Shown here piece by piece: positions 8,581-42,485 of a stretch of DNA of 64,000 nucleotides. The notes below the pieces were generated by a model. That model did not search any database. It was not told the origin of the DNA and worked only from the letters and a program-made list of their open reading frames with translations. Numbering within the stretch: the first letter of the stretch is position 1; every line of letters begins with the position of its first letter. The position numbers were made by a program, and so were the translations under genes. This DNA is from Firmicutes bacterium ADurb.Bin193 (lineage in GTDB: Bacteria; Bacillota; Clostridia; Monoglobales; Firm-18): positions 1 to 64,000 of the forward strand of contig MWCQ01000001.1 in NCBI GenBank assembly GCA_002070105.1, given 5' to 3'.

Positions 8581-9641
8581 TCCACGGTCACCTTCTCTCC
8601 GGCAACGGCGCAAAGTCCGTATTTCAATACTATGTCCGAGCCGCCCTTTTCAATGACTTTTTTGACAAACAGCCCCCGCAAGGAATATTCCTGAGAAAGC
8701 GCATCAATATTGATTTTCATCGTTGTAAAGTCATTTACCTTTACATAAAAATAATCATCTTTCAGTCTTTCGGATATAAAGGAGGTATCAAGAAGAATGC
8801 CCTCGTCGGTTTGTCCCGTAAGATTTATTTTATATAAATTCTTTTTGTCCTTGGCGAACTCGGATATTTTGCTGCAAAGCTCGTTATAGCCCGCAAGACC
8901 CGTTACATCAACGCTGATTTCGACACATTCGCGCTTACAGACTCTAACAAACTCAAGCTCCGTATGGTTTTTATATATCACGCCGAGAATTACACCCTTT
9001 TCTCCGAGCTCATCAAACCCGCGGGCCTCAGGAATTCCGGGGTACGCATAGCTTACCGTGCCTGCGGTTTTTATTCCGCTGTATGCGTGAATATGCCCAA
9101 GAGCTACATAATCGGCGCCCGTTTTTGCGAGCATATCGGGCGTTACGGGATTGTAACGGCTTGTCTGACCGCTTCCTACAAGGTCGGCATGAAGGCATAA
9201 TATATTTATTTTTGAGGGGTTATGTACCGAAAAGCCTTCGGGAATAACCGGTATGGTGTTCTCCTCGTCGGAGCTTGCGCCGTAAACATCAAACAGGTCA
9301 CACTCAATTTTTTCGATTAATCTTCCGAAAACATGAACATTTGAGGGGAACTGCGCTTTAAGCCCCGCATCGTGGTTTCCGAGCGTTATAAAAACCTTAA
9401 TTTCGGGTATGGTATTAAGATATGCGCATACGGAATCAACGGCGGTCTGTGAGGGTAGGGCGCTGTCGAAAATGTCACCGCAAAGCAGAAGCGCATCGAC
9501 TTTTTCGTCCTTTGCAAGCCTTATAACTTTTCCGAAGGTATCGACAAGCTCGGCCCTTCGTATGTCGGAGAGCTTTCCTATGTTTATAAGCGGAGCTCCG
9601 ATATGAAAATCGGCAGCGTGAAGAATTTTTATTTTATTCAT
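8577..9641 (-). CDS. SbcD/YhaO-like metallophosphoesterase (DNA repair nuclease)
   Basis: The 354-residue protein carries the calcineurin-type metal-binding series in order: DFHIG (11-15), GDIFDS (about 53-58), GNHD, LHAD and GHIH. This is the nuclease half of Mre11/SbcD-type complexes; YhaO is the closest named relative by context. The C-terminal 120 residues are the usual capping and partner-binding region. The gene is first in a two-gene operon and is translationally coupled to the ATPase by a TTGA overlap. A GGAGTGATG ribosome binding site precedes the ATG. The substrate is inferred to be DNA ends or hairpins from the family. Confidence 0.88.
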   Translation of the reverse strand: MNKIKILHAADFHIGAPLINIGKLSDIRRAELVDTFGKVIRLAKDEKVDALLLCGDIFDSALPSQTAVDSVCAYLNTIPEIKVFITLGNHDAGLKAQFPSNVHVFGRLIEKIECDLFDVYGASSDEENTIPVIPEGFSVHNPSKINILCLHADLVGSGQTSRYNPVTPDMLAKTGADYVALGHIHAYSGIKTAGTVSYAYPGIPEARGFDELGEKGVILGVIYKNHTELEFVRVCKRECVEISVDVTGLAGYNELCSKISEFAKDKKNLYKINLTGQTDEGILLDTSFISERLKDDYFYVKVNDFTTMKINIDALSQEYSLRGLFVKKVIEKGGSDIVLKYGLCAVAGEKVTVD

Positions 9642-9660
9642 TTTTCATCACTCCGAATAT

Positions 9661-9688
9661 ATTGTAACATATTTATTATATATTTCAA
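9661..9688 (-). promoter_or_regulatory. Likely sigma-A promoter for the nuclease-ATPase operon
   Basis: On the minus strand TTGAAA (9683-9688) and TACAAT (9661-9666) are 16 bases apart. The leader to the ATG at 9641 would be very short, about 13 bases, but includes the GGAG site. Confidence 0.5.
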
Positions 9689-9724
9689 ACAAAATTTTCA
9701 AAATCACTTTGTATTTTGCTATTA

Positions 9725-9831
9725 TTATGGTATAATAAACGCAAGCGTTTATTATACGCTCCGCGTGGAATTTATCGCCCGCGCGAAATTTTCGCCTTGC
9801 GGCGAAACGCGCATGGGCAATTATACCATAA
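9725..9831. repeat. Miniature inverted-repeat element, copy 1
   Basis: This 107-bp unit is bounded by perfect 12-bp terminal inverted repeats (TTATGGTATAAT at 9725-9736 and its complement at 9820-9831). Just inside the left end is a perfect 11-bp palindrome (ATAATAAACGC, two bases, then its complement). It is too short to encode anything. A near-identical second copy follows after 12 bases. Confidence 0.8.
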
Positions 9832-9843
9832 TTCGCTTCGCTT

Positions 9844-9957
9844 TTATGGTATAATAAACGCAAGCGTTTATTATACGCTCCGCGTGGAATTTATTGCACC
9901 GCCGAAATTTTCCTCGCAAAAAGCGCTCGGAAACGGCGATGTGCAATTATACCATAA
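9844..9957. repeat. Miniature inverted-repeat element, copy 2
   Basis: This 114-bp unit has the same 12-bp terminal inverted repeats (9844-9855 and 9946-9957). The first 50 bases match copy 1 almost base for base (offset 119), while the centre has diverged. A degenerate left end (TTTGGTATAAT) is seen again at about 9971-9981. Together with flanking AT-rich sequence the two copies account for the whole 396-base gap between the nuclease operon and the next gene. Confidence 0.8.
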
Positions 9958-10037
9958 TTCGCGTTATTTATTTGGTATAATAATTTGTAATAACAAAACT
10001 ATATTATATTATCATATATAAGTCGAGGTGTAATAAA

Positions 10038-10631
10038 ATGAGAAAGGTACATTATGGCGGTAAAAGTTTTAACAGCGGCAGCGGAAGAAAAAGGAATGTT
10101 CTGCTTGTAGTCACTGCGGTATTCCTTTTATTGACTGTGTTTTTCCTTTCGTTCATAATTGCATACAATGTCATGAAAAATGACCGCATGGGTAATCAGG
10201 ACAATCTGCTTGCCGATCTGCAGGACGAGGAAGCAGGTTCGGTGTCTGCAAAAGAGCTTCCGGAGGATGTTGCGGAGCTTCAAAGAATGGTTGAGGCTTT
10301 AAACAACGAAATCGAGGAGCTCAACGCCCAGGTTGATAAGTATAAGGCGCTTGCGGAAATGAGAAGCGGGAATATACCTGTGGAAAAACCCAACCCCACA
10401 ATTGTTCCCGTATCAACAGCTTCACCGAGACCTACGGCTGCACCGTCACATTCTCCTTCGTCAGTAAGACCGTCACCGACTCCCAAACCGTCTACAACAC
10501 CATCTTCGAGCCCATCGAAAGAACCGTCCCCGACGCCGACTCCCACACAGTCACCCGCTGTGTCTCCTGCCGTTTCGGAAAAACCTACACCAGCTCCCAT
10601 GCAGAGTGACGGAACAATTGACGGTATTTGA
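10038..10631 (+). CDS. Single-pass membrane protein with coiled coil and Pro/Ser/Thr-rich tail
   Basis: I do not recognise a family. The 197-residue protein has a basic N-terminus (1-19), one hydrophobic helix at about 20-45, an acidic stretch, a coiled coil at about 72-105 (LQRMVEALNNEIEELNAQV) and a low-complexity Pro/Ser/Thr tail from about 115 to 190. The topology predicts a cytoplasmic N-terminus and an outward-facing tail that could span or bind the wall. The stop codon lies 2 bases before the ATG of the SLH-domain gene, so the pair is almost certainly cotranscribed and may work together in envelope organisation. Confidence 0.7.
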   Translation: MRKVHYGGKSFNSGSGRKRNVLLVVTAVFLLLTVFFLSFIIAYNVMKNDRMGNQDNLLADLQDEEAGSVSAKELPEDVAELQRMVEALNNEIEELNAQVDKYKALAEMRSGNIPVEKPNPTIVPVSTASPRPTAAPSHSPSSVRPSPTPKPSTTPSSSPSKEPSPTPTPTQSPAVSPAVSEKPTPAPMQSDGTIDGI

Positions 10632-24364: not shown

Positions 24365-25332
24365 AGCGTATCACCACACACCTTTGAAAGAAGTTTTACG
24401 GCATTTTTTATATCGCTTATCGAAGCGGTTTCACAAGCGGTATGAATATATCGGGTCGGGATTGAAAGCGCGCCCGTTGCAACACCGACGCCGGTCGTAT
24501 GAATTGCGCCCGCGTCCGTTCCGCCCTTGTCCAAAATCTCATACTGAATATCGATTCTTTCGGCCTTTGCTGTATCAGCCAAAAGCCTTTTAATTTCGGG
24601 GTGGCATATTACTGAGCCGTCCTTAACCTTAATCGCAGGGCCCTTTCCGAGCACAAGCGGATATTTTCCGCCGCCGGGAATGTCATCGCAAACCGTAACA
24701 TCAACCGCGATGGCATAGTCCGGCGATATCCCCGCCGCAGCAGTTTTCGCGCCTCTTAACCCAAGCTCCTCCTGAACGGTAAAAACAAAATATAAATCAT
24801 AATTAGGTTTAGTAATCGATTTTAAGGTTTCTAGAAGAATATAACATCCAACCCTGTCGTCGAGTGCCTTTGAGGATACAAAATCGCCTGAAAGATTAAA
24901 TTCCGATGCCATTACAGCGGTGTCTCCGACAGAAATGTTGTAAAGTCCTTCACCTTTACATATATTAGGTATATCAATGTATAAATCGCTGAATTTTGTC
25001 GGTTTTTCTGACTTTTCGTATATTATGCCAATGGTTCCGTCAATGAATTTCACCTTACTGCTGTGTAAAGCATTTATCTTTACACCTCCGATTTCGGAGA
25101 AATGCACAAAATTTTTGTCGTCTATCACCGTTGCGATAATTCCTATCTCATCCATGTGCGCGGACAGCATTAATTTCTTGCCCCCGCCGTATTTTCGCAC
25201 AACCAGATTACCGAGTGTATCAACCTTTGTTTCATCGCAAAAGCCCTTAATTTCTTCGGTTATTATATCCCTTACTGTCTGTTCGTTCCCCGAAGGGCCG
25301 AACGCCTGAGTCAGTTTTTTCAAAAGCTCCAT
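24361..25332 (-). CDS. M42 family metallopeptidase, copy 1
   Basis: The 323-residue protein has the glutamyl-aminopeptidase/FrvX-type (M42) dinuclear metalloprotease pattern. Metal-ligand motifs in order are SAHMDEIG, ALDDRVGC, VQEELGLRG, AVDVT and RYIHTACE. These cytosolic enzymes form large tetrahedral particles and trim peptides from the N-terminus; some members are cellulases or unassigned. Its start overlaps the preceding M42 gene by 13 bases. It is clearly a paralogue of the next two genes upstream but not a recent duplicate. Confidence 0.92.
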   Translation of the reverse strand: MELLKKLTQAFGPSGNEQTVRDIITEEIKGFCDETKVDTLGNLVVRKYGGGKKLMLSAHMDEIGIIATVIDDKNFVHFSEIGGVKINALHSSKVKFIDGTIGIIYEKSEKPTKFSDLYIDIPNICKGEGLYNISVGDTAVMASEFNLSGDFVSSKALDDRVGCYILLETLKSITKPNYDLYFVFTVQEELGLRGAKTAAAGISPDYAIAVDVTVCDDIPGGGKYPLVLGKGPAIKVKDGSVICHPEIKRLLADTAKAERIDIQYEILDKGGTDAGAIHTTGVGVATGALSIPTRYIHTACETASISDIKNAVKLLSKVCGDTL

Positions 25333-26342
25333 GCTTCATTCACCTCACCTTTTAAAAAGTTGTCCAAAATATCGTATACAGAATTTATATCACCAATGCT
25401 TGCCACGCATGACGGAGAGTGAATGTACCTGCAGGGCACGGAGATTACCGCAGTTTTTATACCCGTTTCGGTAAGATGTATCGCACCCGCATCATTGCCG
25501 CCGAAGGTGGTTTGCTTGTACTGCACCTTTATCCCGTTTGAAACAGCGGCCTTGTAAAGCACATTCCGCAGATCGGGCGCGGAGTATGAGCTTCTGTCAA
25601 GTATCGATATTGCTCCGCCGCCCCGAAGCTTTGTGGAAAAGCCCGCCTCGTCCGTTTCCGGAACATCTGAGCAGGTTGTTGCCTCAACGACAATGGCTAT
25701 GTCGGGCTTCACGCTGTATGTCGCAACGCCTGCTCCGCGACAACCTATTTCCTCCTGAACGGTAAAAACAAAATATACATCATGAGGATATCTGTTTTTA
25801 GCAAGGTCAAGAAGTATAAAGCATCCTATTCTGTCGTCCAATGCCTTTCCCTTTATCAGTATATCACCGAACTCTTTGTATTCGCTGTCAAAGCAGGCAA
25901 AATCGCCGATTGATATATATTTTAAAGCGTCATCATCGTCCTTTGCACCGATGTCAATATATAAATCCTTAACCGAAGCCGCCTTATCCTTTTTTTTACC
26001 CTCCAAATGGGGAGGCTTGTCCCCTATACAGCCGACTGTTTTATTTTTCCCGATTATAACTTTTTTTGCGGACAGGACCCTCGGGTCAATTCCGCCGACC
26101 GTCTTAAAGCGAAGATACCCTTCCTTTGTCACGCCCGAAATAATAAATCCGACCTCGTCCATGTGCGCTGTTAACATAATAGTATTACAGTAACCTTTGG
26201 TGCCCTTTTTGAGACAAATCAGGTTACCCATTGAGTCGGTTTCAACATTATCGCATAACGAAAGCATCTCATTTTTAATAATTTCCCTTACTTCGTCCTC
26301 TGCGCCTGATACGCCAAAGGCCTCGGAAAGAATTTTCAGCAA
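25320..26342 (-). CDS. M42 family metallopeptidase, copy 2
   Basis: This protein is about 340 residues and has the same M42 ligand series: TAHMDEVG, ALDDRIGC, VQEEIGCRG, VVEAT (Glu in place of the Asp seen in the sister copies) and RYIHSPSC. Relative to the sister proteins it has a slightly longer loop around the KPPHLEGKKKDK segment. The TTG at 26342 is the likely start because GGAGGG lies 6 bases upstream; it overlaps the end of copy 3 by 7 bases, so translation is coupled. Confidence 0.88.
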   Translation of the reverse strand: MLKILSEAFGVSGAEDEVREIIKNEMLSLCDNVETDSMGNLICLKKGTKGYCNTIMLTAHMDEVGFIISGVTKEGYLRFKTVGGIDPRVLSAKKVIIGKNKTVGCIGDKPPHLEGKKKDKAASVKDLYIDIGAKDDDDALKYISIGDFACFDSEYKEFGDILIKGKALDDRIGCFILLDLAKNRYPHDVYFVFTVQEEIGCRGAGVATYSVKPDIAIVVEATTCSDVPETDEAGFSTKLRGGGAISILDRSSYSAPDLRNVLYKAAVSNGIKVQYKQTTFGGNDAGAIHLTETGIKTAVISVPCRYIHSPSCVASIGDINSVYDILDNFLKGEVNEAWSF

Positions 26343-41707: not shown

Positions 41708-41805
41708 TTTTAATTTATTTTTACGCTCCGGCGAAATGAATTCGCCTTCGCTCACCCTCGCGGGGCGAGATGTTGCGTTTCGGAAAGCGCTTCGCGCCGA
41801 AACGA
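41708..41805. repeat. Tandem palindromic repeat, unit 1
   Basis: This 98-bp unit has three consecutive hairpins: GGCGAA with TTCGCC, CTCGC with GCGAG, and TTTCGG with CCGAAA enclosing GCG-CTT-CGC. It starts with TTTTAATTTATTTTTACGC. The next unit follows directly. Confidence 0.85.
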
Positions 41806-41904
41806 TTTTAATTTATTTTTACGCTCCGGCGAAATGAATTCGCCTTCGCTCACCCTCGCGGGGCGAGATTTTGCGTTTTACGAAAGCGCTTCGCGCCGAA
41901 ATGC
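41806..41904. repeat. Tandem palindromic repeat, unit 2
   Basis: This 99-bp unit is nearly identical to unit 1 over its first 60 bases, with a few differences in the last third. It abuts TTTTAATT at 41905, which contains the stop codon of the DUF2953 gene, so the two units fill the gap between that gene and gerW exactly. The unit shares the string TACGCTCCG with the elements at 9.7-10.0 kb. Confidence 0.85.
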
Positions 41905-41906
41905 TT

Positions 41907-42485
41907 TTAATTAAATACAGAAAGCCTTTCTCTGTTTCTTTTGCAAAGGCGCACTATCCTTTTAACAATTTCAATCATTTTTATCGGGCGGGAATAGAAA
42001 ATAAGGTTTATGTTCATTTCAAAGCAGGTCTTTGTAAATTGCGGACAGAGCGCTATATTCAGCTTTTTGTCAAGCTCCCAGTATTTTTTGAGAAAAGCCG
42101 AGGCACCACCGACACAGCCCCACAAAAAACCGCTTGCAATCCCCGTAACCGCGGCATCTCCGAAGCCGAAATCAACGGAAAAATTAAGCTTCTTTATATC
42201 AAATCTTCTTTGCGCCTCTTGCAGAATCGAAACTATTTCGCATTTTTCGTCCCTGTAAAAAGCCTTAAGTGCTCCGTATTTGTCGGTTAACTCTTTAAAC
42301 GAAAGCTTCGGAGTTTTAATATATTTATCGTCCTTTTTCCCCTTTGCGGACGAATACACGGTAAAATTGCCCACATCGACCGTAAACACATTTTTTACAT
42401 AGCGGACGGTAACCCGCCATCTATGAAAAAAGGCAAATAAAATGAGTATTATTATTGCCGACAAAACCCACAAAAATCCAAACAT
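41907..42485 (-). CDS. DUF2953 membrane protein
   Basis: The protein of about 192 residues has an N-terminal hydrophobic helix (about 2-22), a DUF2953-like middle with KLNFSVDFGFGDAAVTGIASG, and a basic C-terminal tail. The function is unknown; it is conserved beside gerW (ytfJ) in spore-forming Firmicutes and is presumed to act in spore formation. The start is uncertain: ATG 42485 keeps the usual short N-terminus, while ATG 42518 adds 11 residues and has no well-spaced ribosome binding site. Confidence 0.8.
   Translation of the reverse strand: MFGFLWVLSAIIILILFAFFHRWRVTVRYVKNVFTVDVGNFTVYSSAKGKKDDKYIKTPKLSFKELTDKYGALKAFYRDEKCEIVSILQEAQRRFDIKKLNFSVDFGFGDAAVTGIASGFLWGCVGGASAFLKKYWELDKKLNIALCPQFTKTCFEMNINLIFYSRPIKMIEIVKRIVRLCKRNRERLSVFN

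Follow-up and report, generated by a model that had tools for sequence, protein, structure and literature searches.

What are the two inverted-repeat units that stand side by side ahead of a codirectional reading frame in a Clostridia genome, and what are the promoter-like strings at their ends? The units lie in the window, the 64,000-nucleotide stretch of Firmicutes bacterium ADurb.Bin193 analysed here (contig MWCQ01000001.1, positions 1 to 64,000). A first-pass annotation described them as units of 107 and 114 bp with perfect 12-bp inverted termini, separated by 12 bases, and the four termini were located as exact copies of TTATGGTATAAT at 9725 (+), 9820 (-), 9844 (+) and 9946 (-). Allowing one mismatch, the window holds six matches against 0.49 expected, a number reached in 0/100 shuffles. 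The third, degenerate end that had been proposed corresponds to TTTGGTATAAT at 9971-9981. An internal palindrome is also present, although the 11 bp given for it is too short: it is a 28-nt inverted repeat, GTATAATAAACGC-AA-GCGTTTATTATAC (9730-9757 and 9849-9876), whose perfect 13-bp arms include the TATAAT.

A better division of the units takes the last base of each TATAAT as the boundary, which gives lengths of 119 and 126 bp (9737-9855 and 9856-9981), so that the supposed third end becomes the right end of the second unit. A 126-bp period is also found in the array closing contig C1 (C1:269408-269695), in agreement with this cut. Folded as single-stranded DNA, both units lie far below shuffled sequences (z of -6.0 and -4.4). 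The features of the locus are as follows.

9709-9714, + strand: TTGTAT, a weak candidate -35 (3/6 matches) 16 bp upstream of the left -10; absent from the consensus-scan list, in a copy outside the 26-copy test set
9725-9736, + strand: left TTATGGTATAAT, an extended -10 box, read by analogy with the 26 tested copies as the host promoter's -10, flank and not element
9737-9855, + strand: unit 1, 119 bp, running from just behind the left TATAAT through its own right TATAAT
9730-9757, + strand: left-end hairpin of unit 1, in which the -10 box pairs with ATTATA (fold; covariation over 29 distinct left hairpins)
9757-9822, + strand: core hairpin of unit 1 (covariance model R1, E 1.7e-18; fold)
9820-9855, + strand: right-end hairpin of unit 1, ATTATACCATAA ... 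TTATGGTATAAT, bearing the element's own extended -10 (fold; right-end pairing test)
9856-9981, + strand: unit 2, 126 bp, in tandem immediately 3' of the unit 1 TATAAT
9849-9876, + strand: left-end hairpin of unit 2 (inverted repeat; fold)
9876-9948, + strand: core hairpin of unit 2 (R1, E 1.1e-25)
9946-9981, + strand: partly decayed right end of unit 2, containing TTTGGTATAAT; its hairpin is absent from the single-strand fold
10038-10631, + strand: downstream codirectional reading frame of 197 aa, no Pfam match, with an SD-like GAGGTG at 10025-10030

Two other repeats were noted in the window. At 41708-41912 lie two 98-bp tandem units (TTTTAATTTATTTTTACGCTCCGGCGAAATGAATTCGCC...), 99% alike over 73 nt, which form a distinct second hairpin-rich repeat, and a 34-nt direct repeat (24767-24800 and 25750-25783) is 97% identical at a spacing of 983 bp.

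The pair is not unique in its genome (G000; 2.63 Mb in 58 contigs); uniqueness would have pointed to a local duplication. A covariance model of the core, R1, built from 27 sequences with 14 pairs, found 20 core matches at 16 places, and the earlier reading as a MITE/REP-like element with promoter parts holds; like a MITE, it is multi-copy, dispersed, non-coding and base-paired. Assembly breaks coincide with the array at the end of C1 and with a copy at the start of C2. Exact TTATGGTATAAT occurs 29 times in the genome, compared with no occurrence of a reversed control. Twenty-one of the 29 lie within 60 nt of a core match and eight lie away from any. One of these eight, at C8:51435, is inside a palindrome that by eye resembles a remnant, and at least four of the eight (C2:160739, C6:72628, C9:79239 and C25:12589; by eye) precede a reading frame. 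Because TTATGGTATAAT stands before reading frames in this way without a core, the "terminal repeat" is an extended -10 promoter box and not an ordinary transposon end.

The left flanks of -10-type copies resemble a sigma-A promoter. We scored the best match to TTGACA at spacers of 16-18 upstream of the left -10 in 26 copies scored as first in their array, taken from 13 sources in G000 and 13 loci in G003, a genome of the same family; four tandem rows were dropped, duplicates were counted once, the first copies of the window and of C8 were missed by the pattern, and five rows with a mispicked -10 box (L064, L071, L102 at 1725, L103 on the + strand, and L107) were kept among the 26. The mean was 3.85 of 6 positions, against 2.57 ± 0.18 for shuffled flanks, with 0/5000 flank shuffles as high and a peak at spacer 17; five or more matches were found in 6/26 copies where 0.48 were expected. 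As a group, then, the copies follow immediately on a -10 box that has a sigma-A-like -35 ahead of it. The right end bears another -10 box, and tandem copies join at that box. Since the -35 lies at 16-18 bp in the 26 copies, the left TATAAT is apparently the -10 of the host promoter itself; the right TATAAT is the element's. The TATAAT strings had been taken for promoter parts that insertion could create; promoter parts they are, but on this reading they are more than a chance by-product of insertion. In the window the -35 is weak (TTGTAT, spacer 16), yet the extended TGG is retained before TATAAT, and a consensus promoter scan of 9600-10100 returned four sites, against 2.7 ± 2.0 in shuffles, with none at the element's boxes. 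Searching in each unit's own direction, we found a reading frame behind every scored unit but that on C9 (L060).

Both ends form hairpins in which the expression signal pairs with an internal anti-signal. Among 29 distinct left hairpins of this -10 type, trimmed by eye and excluding L107, L071 and the truncated L102 and L103 copies, covariation was 0.309 against 0.105 when shuffled, and 8/13 pairs had changed on both sides. These two-sided changes include positions of the -10 box itself, which occurs as TATAAT, TAAAAT, TACAAT or TATACT. At the right end, 153/165 positions pair in 15 distinct ends (18 in all, trimmed by eye), compared with 130 when arms are swapped (0/10000 as high). Such covariation, measured on hand-picked sets, could alternatively come from mutation templated between the hairpin arms rather than from selection. 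Taken together, the element is dispersed and multi-copy, and its core hairpin is flanked by a further hairpin at either end.

The genus is represented by the window's own genome alone. In the family, a DNA search gave matches in 4/8 genomes, 19 of them in G003. R1 matched 23/51 genomes of the order (E up to 0.001) and, with 12 candidates scored per genome, 38/391 genomes and 26/223 genera of the class (E up to 1e-5); G003 and G026 hold 21 and 23 core matches. By eye, the -10 type is found outside the window's family in G010 and G011 and in seven of the nine class-scan loci inspected (G057, G123, G172, G237, G277, G376 and G410). The remaining two, G393 and G059, have a Shine-Dalgarno (SD) sequence in place of the -10 box. 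Topic searches of the PMC literature, which leaves subscription journals mostly outside its coverage, returned no earlier description of the element, and a sequence-string search of that literature returned a kiwifruit paper only. At gathering level, Rfam matched tRNA and rRNA alone in 20 sources, with nothing relevant in relatives; at the window element its matches were low-scoring and far under the gathering scores.

In SD-type relatives the same core lies 3' of an SD, and the right end supplies an SD before the start codon. The arrangement, seen in many genomes of the taxonomic order, begins with the native SD and about 1-6 nt; next come a palindrome, for instance TAACGTGAAAG-TTC-CTTTCACGTTA, and the core, and the right-end hairpin closes with GGCGGAATGGAGATTATTATG, in which ATG is the start codon of the downstream gene. 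An SD-like 4-mer was present in the 16-nt flank of 31/37 copies scored as first in their array, compared with 8/76 control windows; two of the 37 (the second unit of L146, and L148) actually follow another right end. In tandem arrays the second copy begins behind the GGAGAT of the first (L141-L144). The native SD is complementary to a stretch just 3' of the left palindrome, usually CCTCC, with examples such as GGAGATG/CATCTCC in L226 and GGAGGCG/CGCCTCC in L269; the duplex energy was -7.69 when native partners were kept together and -6.99 ± 0.19 after swapping (2/5000 as low). Two core copies of the window's own genome (C7:87756-87828 and C2:105956-106022) are, by eye, in SD-type surroundings, so both target types coexist in one genome.

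The exact 21-mer GGCGGAATGGAGATTATTATG occurs in at least 120 stretches of GTDB genome contigs. Among the 80 loci listed, most are by title Lachnospiraceae, Oscillospiraceae, Ruminococcus and other Clostridia, and the listed matches include Catenibacillus scindens, Lacrimispora amygdalina, Lachnoanaerobaculum saburreum and Anaerostipes hominis. R1 gave 23 matches (E 0.1 or better) in 20 of these 80; many of the other listed loci have a much shorter element or a different core before the same right end, and in a few of them (L263 and L274) no hairpin was seen. In five loci (L248, L253, L260, L261 and L224) the left end is of the same kind, the right end is identical, and a third core (AAAATGGGACCCAACCCATTTTTGTTTCC) lies between them. 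Cores seem to be exchangeable between the same ends. Loci of four Clostridia MAGs (L243, L268, L292 and L229) share a common leader with the same right end, about 275-330 nt long in the first three, which also have a possible short leader reading frame beginning GTGAARGAAAGTAA, and about 150 nt in L229.

The SD-type right end may pair in two mutually exclusive ways, as a possible RNA switch. The hairpin containing the SD covaries at 0.283 against 0.116 when shuffled, with 12/21 pairs changed on both sides, in 26 of 55 gathered ends, four of which (L160, L124, L129 and L131) are poorly aligned; further pair types, one of five measures, gave no excess (99/500 shuffles as high). A competing helix, CTCTTATC/GATAAGAG, excludes the helix that covers the SD and covaries at 0.288 against 0.181 (7/9 pairs). 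By inspection this second helix could form a pseudoknot with GCCCTGC/GCAGGGC in which the SD is freed. In equilibrium folds the new SD was unpaired with a probability below 0.2 in 27/30 leaders (30 of 40 rows, kept by a pattern). We also considered translational coupling through a leader mini-ORF (GTGAAA in the SD-type left end, a few bases behind the native SD), and did not adopt it, as the end of the frame varies between copies (by eye).

The genes behind the copies have unrelated functions and no common pathway, and many are housekeeping genes. Named by best NCBIfam match, several on cut fragments under the family cut-off, the ten scanned behind -10-type copies are gatC, murA, gltX, a CinA C-terminal-type amidase, ddl, pgeF and rex in G000, and secG, lysA and ppdK in G003. 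Behind SD-type copies the matches were to eno, gyrB, rimM, a class II aldolase, rpe, dapF, an IMP cyclohydrolase-like protein, an RluA-family gene and nicotinate phosphoribosyltransferase, together with the glutamate synthase large subunit in the window's own genome.

An empty site was available for an SD-type copy in G032 (L140). Its joined flanks matched 29/38 genomes of its family, and 23 loci were compared after partial matches (L211, L213-L217) were left out. G032 has an insert of 183 nt between AAAGGAGCAATT and ATG, where the gap in the 22 other loci is -12 to 13 nt. Of these empty sites the closest, in G037 (flanks 81 and 88% identical), reads AAAAGGAGAAATTATTATG, compared with AAAGGAGCAATT-[element ending GGAGATTATT]-ATG in G032, so the native SD was kept and a second SD was added. 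Target-site duplications, which had been suggested as a check, were not clear at either of two sites, with boundaries uncertain by a few bases: at the G032/G037 site none exceeds 3 nt and ATT flanks both sides, and in L138 the left flank has ACA and the right flank ATT. For the -10 type there was no clean empty site, the sole orthologous pair tested (G010 and G011) having the insertion in both genomes, and the statement that the left -10 was there first thus rests on the -35 statistic. In this pair the core and the right end's 5' arm are gone from the G011 copy; its left hairpin remains, and the two arms of that hairpin have changed together (TACAAT/ATTGTA in G010, TAAAAT/ATTTTA in G011). At the left flank stands a TATAAT-like box in the -10 type and, in the SD type, an SD at a variable distance with no fixed tetranucleotide.

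A transposase with the same ends, the search for which had also been suggested as a check, was not found; Y1_Tnp was the one family searched. The window's own genome has two Y1_Tnp genes of RAYT-like size at C6:66423-68243 (L092), and by eye their flanks hold GTCAAGGGGACGGGGGTTTGACA and AACCGTCCCTTTGGTTC repeats, a separate repeat system. A Y1 match was present in 11/23 genomes of the order with the core and 9/28 without it. G003 and G026 gave no Y1_Tnp match even at E 10, in assemblies that are 82% and 94% complete. Around 30 of 35 Y1 places (about 1.5 kb on each side, more for the own two) there were three weak core matches, the best at E 0.056. After searches of the own genome, of the order and of nine genomes that bear copies, RAYT/Y1 was rejected as a linked partner: it gave no match in the copy-rich G003 and G026, and no convincing core lay near those 30 places. 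No version bearing an ORF was seen among the element copies read. A search for an autonomous version ahead of GGCGGAATGGAGATTATTATG, comparing up to 2.5 kb upstream of the 80 loci all against all, was likewise unsuccessful: similarity ends within about 40-370 nt, tandems included. Two pairs of upstream regions, L257/L262 and L223/L279, are alike further, over 1.3-2.5 kb. By eye, no transposase was recognised among the ORFs of ten of these loci.

We suggest that the window units belong to an element that is widespread in gut Clostridia and probably mobile. The pair is rather probably a tandem of two copies of a mobile element, non-autonomous and non-coding with hairpin ends, that lands behind expression signals and supplies them anew. 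The element would insert directly behind a promoter box or SD, and the signal would be provided again at its far end, so that the gene behind, housekeeping genes included, would probably still be expressible; a second copy inserting behind the re-supplied signal would give rise to arrays. The signal/anti-signal hairpins at the ends point to movement as folded single-stranded DNA with guide-like target recognition, and the mobilising enzyme would act in trans. The burial of the SD in 27/30 folded SD-type leaders is not easily squared with insertion being harmless. A more specific version is possible, if doubtful: the target would be chosen by base pairing with the internal anti-signal and retargeted between SD (CCTCC, right end AATCTC/GGAGATT) and -10 (ATTATA, right end ATTATACCATA/TATGGTATAAT), the signal would be re-supplied, and the SD form would carry a bistable RNA, hairpin against pseudoknot, that gates the new SD.

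Other explanations have to be weighed against this one. The inverted 12-bp ends and the multi-copy dispersal also fit a conventional MITE with TTATGGTATAAT as terminal inverted repeats, DDE cut-and-paste movement and incidental promoter-like ends of the sort that Correia elements are reported to have, as do several copies that end at GCAATTATACCAT or sooner, without the outer right-hand box, and the possible 3-nt ATT duplication at the G032 site. Such a MITE is nevertheless fairly unlikely, given the lack of a clear target duplication, the promoter-like flank at -35 distance from the left "end", the constant join position of tandem copies, and relatives in which the same core has SD signals instead of such inverted ends. 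We judge it unlikely, too, that the repeat is a non-mobile, riboswitch-like cis-regulatory RNA leader. In the SD type the two exclusive helices, one of which hides the SD, both covary, and the SD is seldom unpaired, which speaks for such a leader; however, the downstream genes share no pathway, only 1/23 orthologous loci has the leader, tandem arrays occur, no relevant Rfam family reached gathering level in the 20 sources, and the SD switch is missing from the -10 type. The two ideas are compatible, as a mobile element could bring a switch with it.

Mobilisation as a REP/REPIN-type repeat by a RAYT (Y1), such as the pair on C6, would suit a hairpin-rich non-coding repeat in a genome with two Y1_Tnp genes, and Y1 is slightly commoner in genomes with the core; the other repeats beside the own Y1 genes, the want of a convincing core near the 30 Y1 places and the copy-rich genomes without Y1 make it very unlikely. 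Least probable of all, and hardly credible to us, is local spread with no dedicated transposase, in which hairpins and short signal repeats would serve as the sites of recombination or template switching. The concerted arm change at the G010/G011 site, the tandem arrays and the failure to find an enzyme are in keeping with it, but dispersal over contigs and over 26/223 genera of the class needs more than local events.

If the mobile-element reading is right, these elements settle between the promoter or ribosome-binding site and the coding region, the most constrained stretch of a bacterial gene, and are tolerable there through the spare signal they bring along. Leaders of housekeeping genes would then have been rewired in many gut Clostridia, promoter and 5'-UTR annotation would be confounded, and the two types would be a natural case of target switching. 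In being small, non-autonomous and hairpin-rich the element is ordinary; its position behind expression signals, its spare copy of the signal and the two signal types on one core are unusual.

Among the known systems close to this one are the IS200/IS605 elements and their non-autonomous derivatives. The family is not known to produce target duplications. As set out in PMC5934647, its members, exemplified by IS608, have subterminal hairpins and insert directly 3' of a short site that is retained at the left flank; the cleavage sites pair with guide sequences of the element, and a change of guide retargets it. The element described here resembles them in its hairpin near each end (decayed at the right end of unit 2 in the window), in the lack of a clear duplication, in a left-flank signal matched at the right end, and in the pairing of signal with anti-signal. 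It differs in that no Y1 transposase is linked to it, the copy-rich G003 and G026 giving no Y1 TnpA match; its target is a functional signal (-10 or SD), the SD-type left flank has no fixed tetranucleotide, and its anti-signal is placed within the left hairpin or 3' of it, instead of 5' of the hairpin base. Because the geometry differs and Y1 does not track the element, we say that it may work like IS200/IS605 elements and do not call it one.

Promoters are also targeted by the TnGBS, ISLre2 and ISKra4 groups of Mutator-like DDE elements, which, according to PMC3942029, insert in a fixed orientation at sigma-A promoters, 15-17 bp upstream of the -35. Here the order is different, with the -35 16-18 bp ahead of the left -10 and the element behind both. 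Those groups carry transposases and inverted repeats, whereas the present element is non-coding and about 120-330 nt long over all its forms. REP/REPIN sequences with TnpA-REP (RAYT) are likewise multi-copy palindromic non-coding repeats, as described in PMC8266576; here no RAYT association was found, nor adjacency around the 30 Y1 places, and the ends bear expression signals. Finally, BOX, RUP, SPRITE and Correia elements are, like this one, small non-autonomous repeats. According to PMC3049150, BOX can be transcribed as a 5' leader, Correia elements can make promoters, and BOX, RUP and SPRITE show significant over-representation between convergent genes, whereas the elements described here sit between a signal and its gene.
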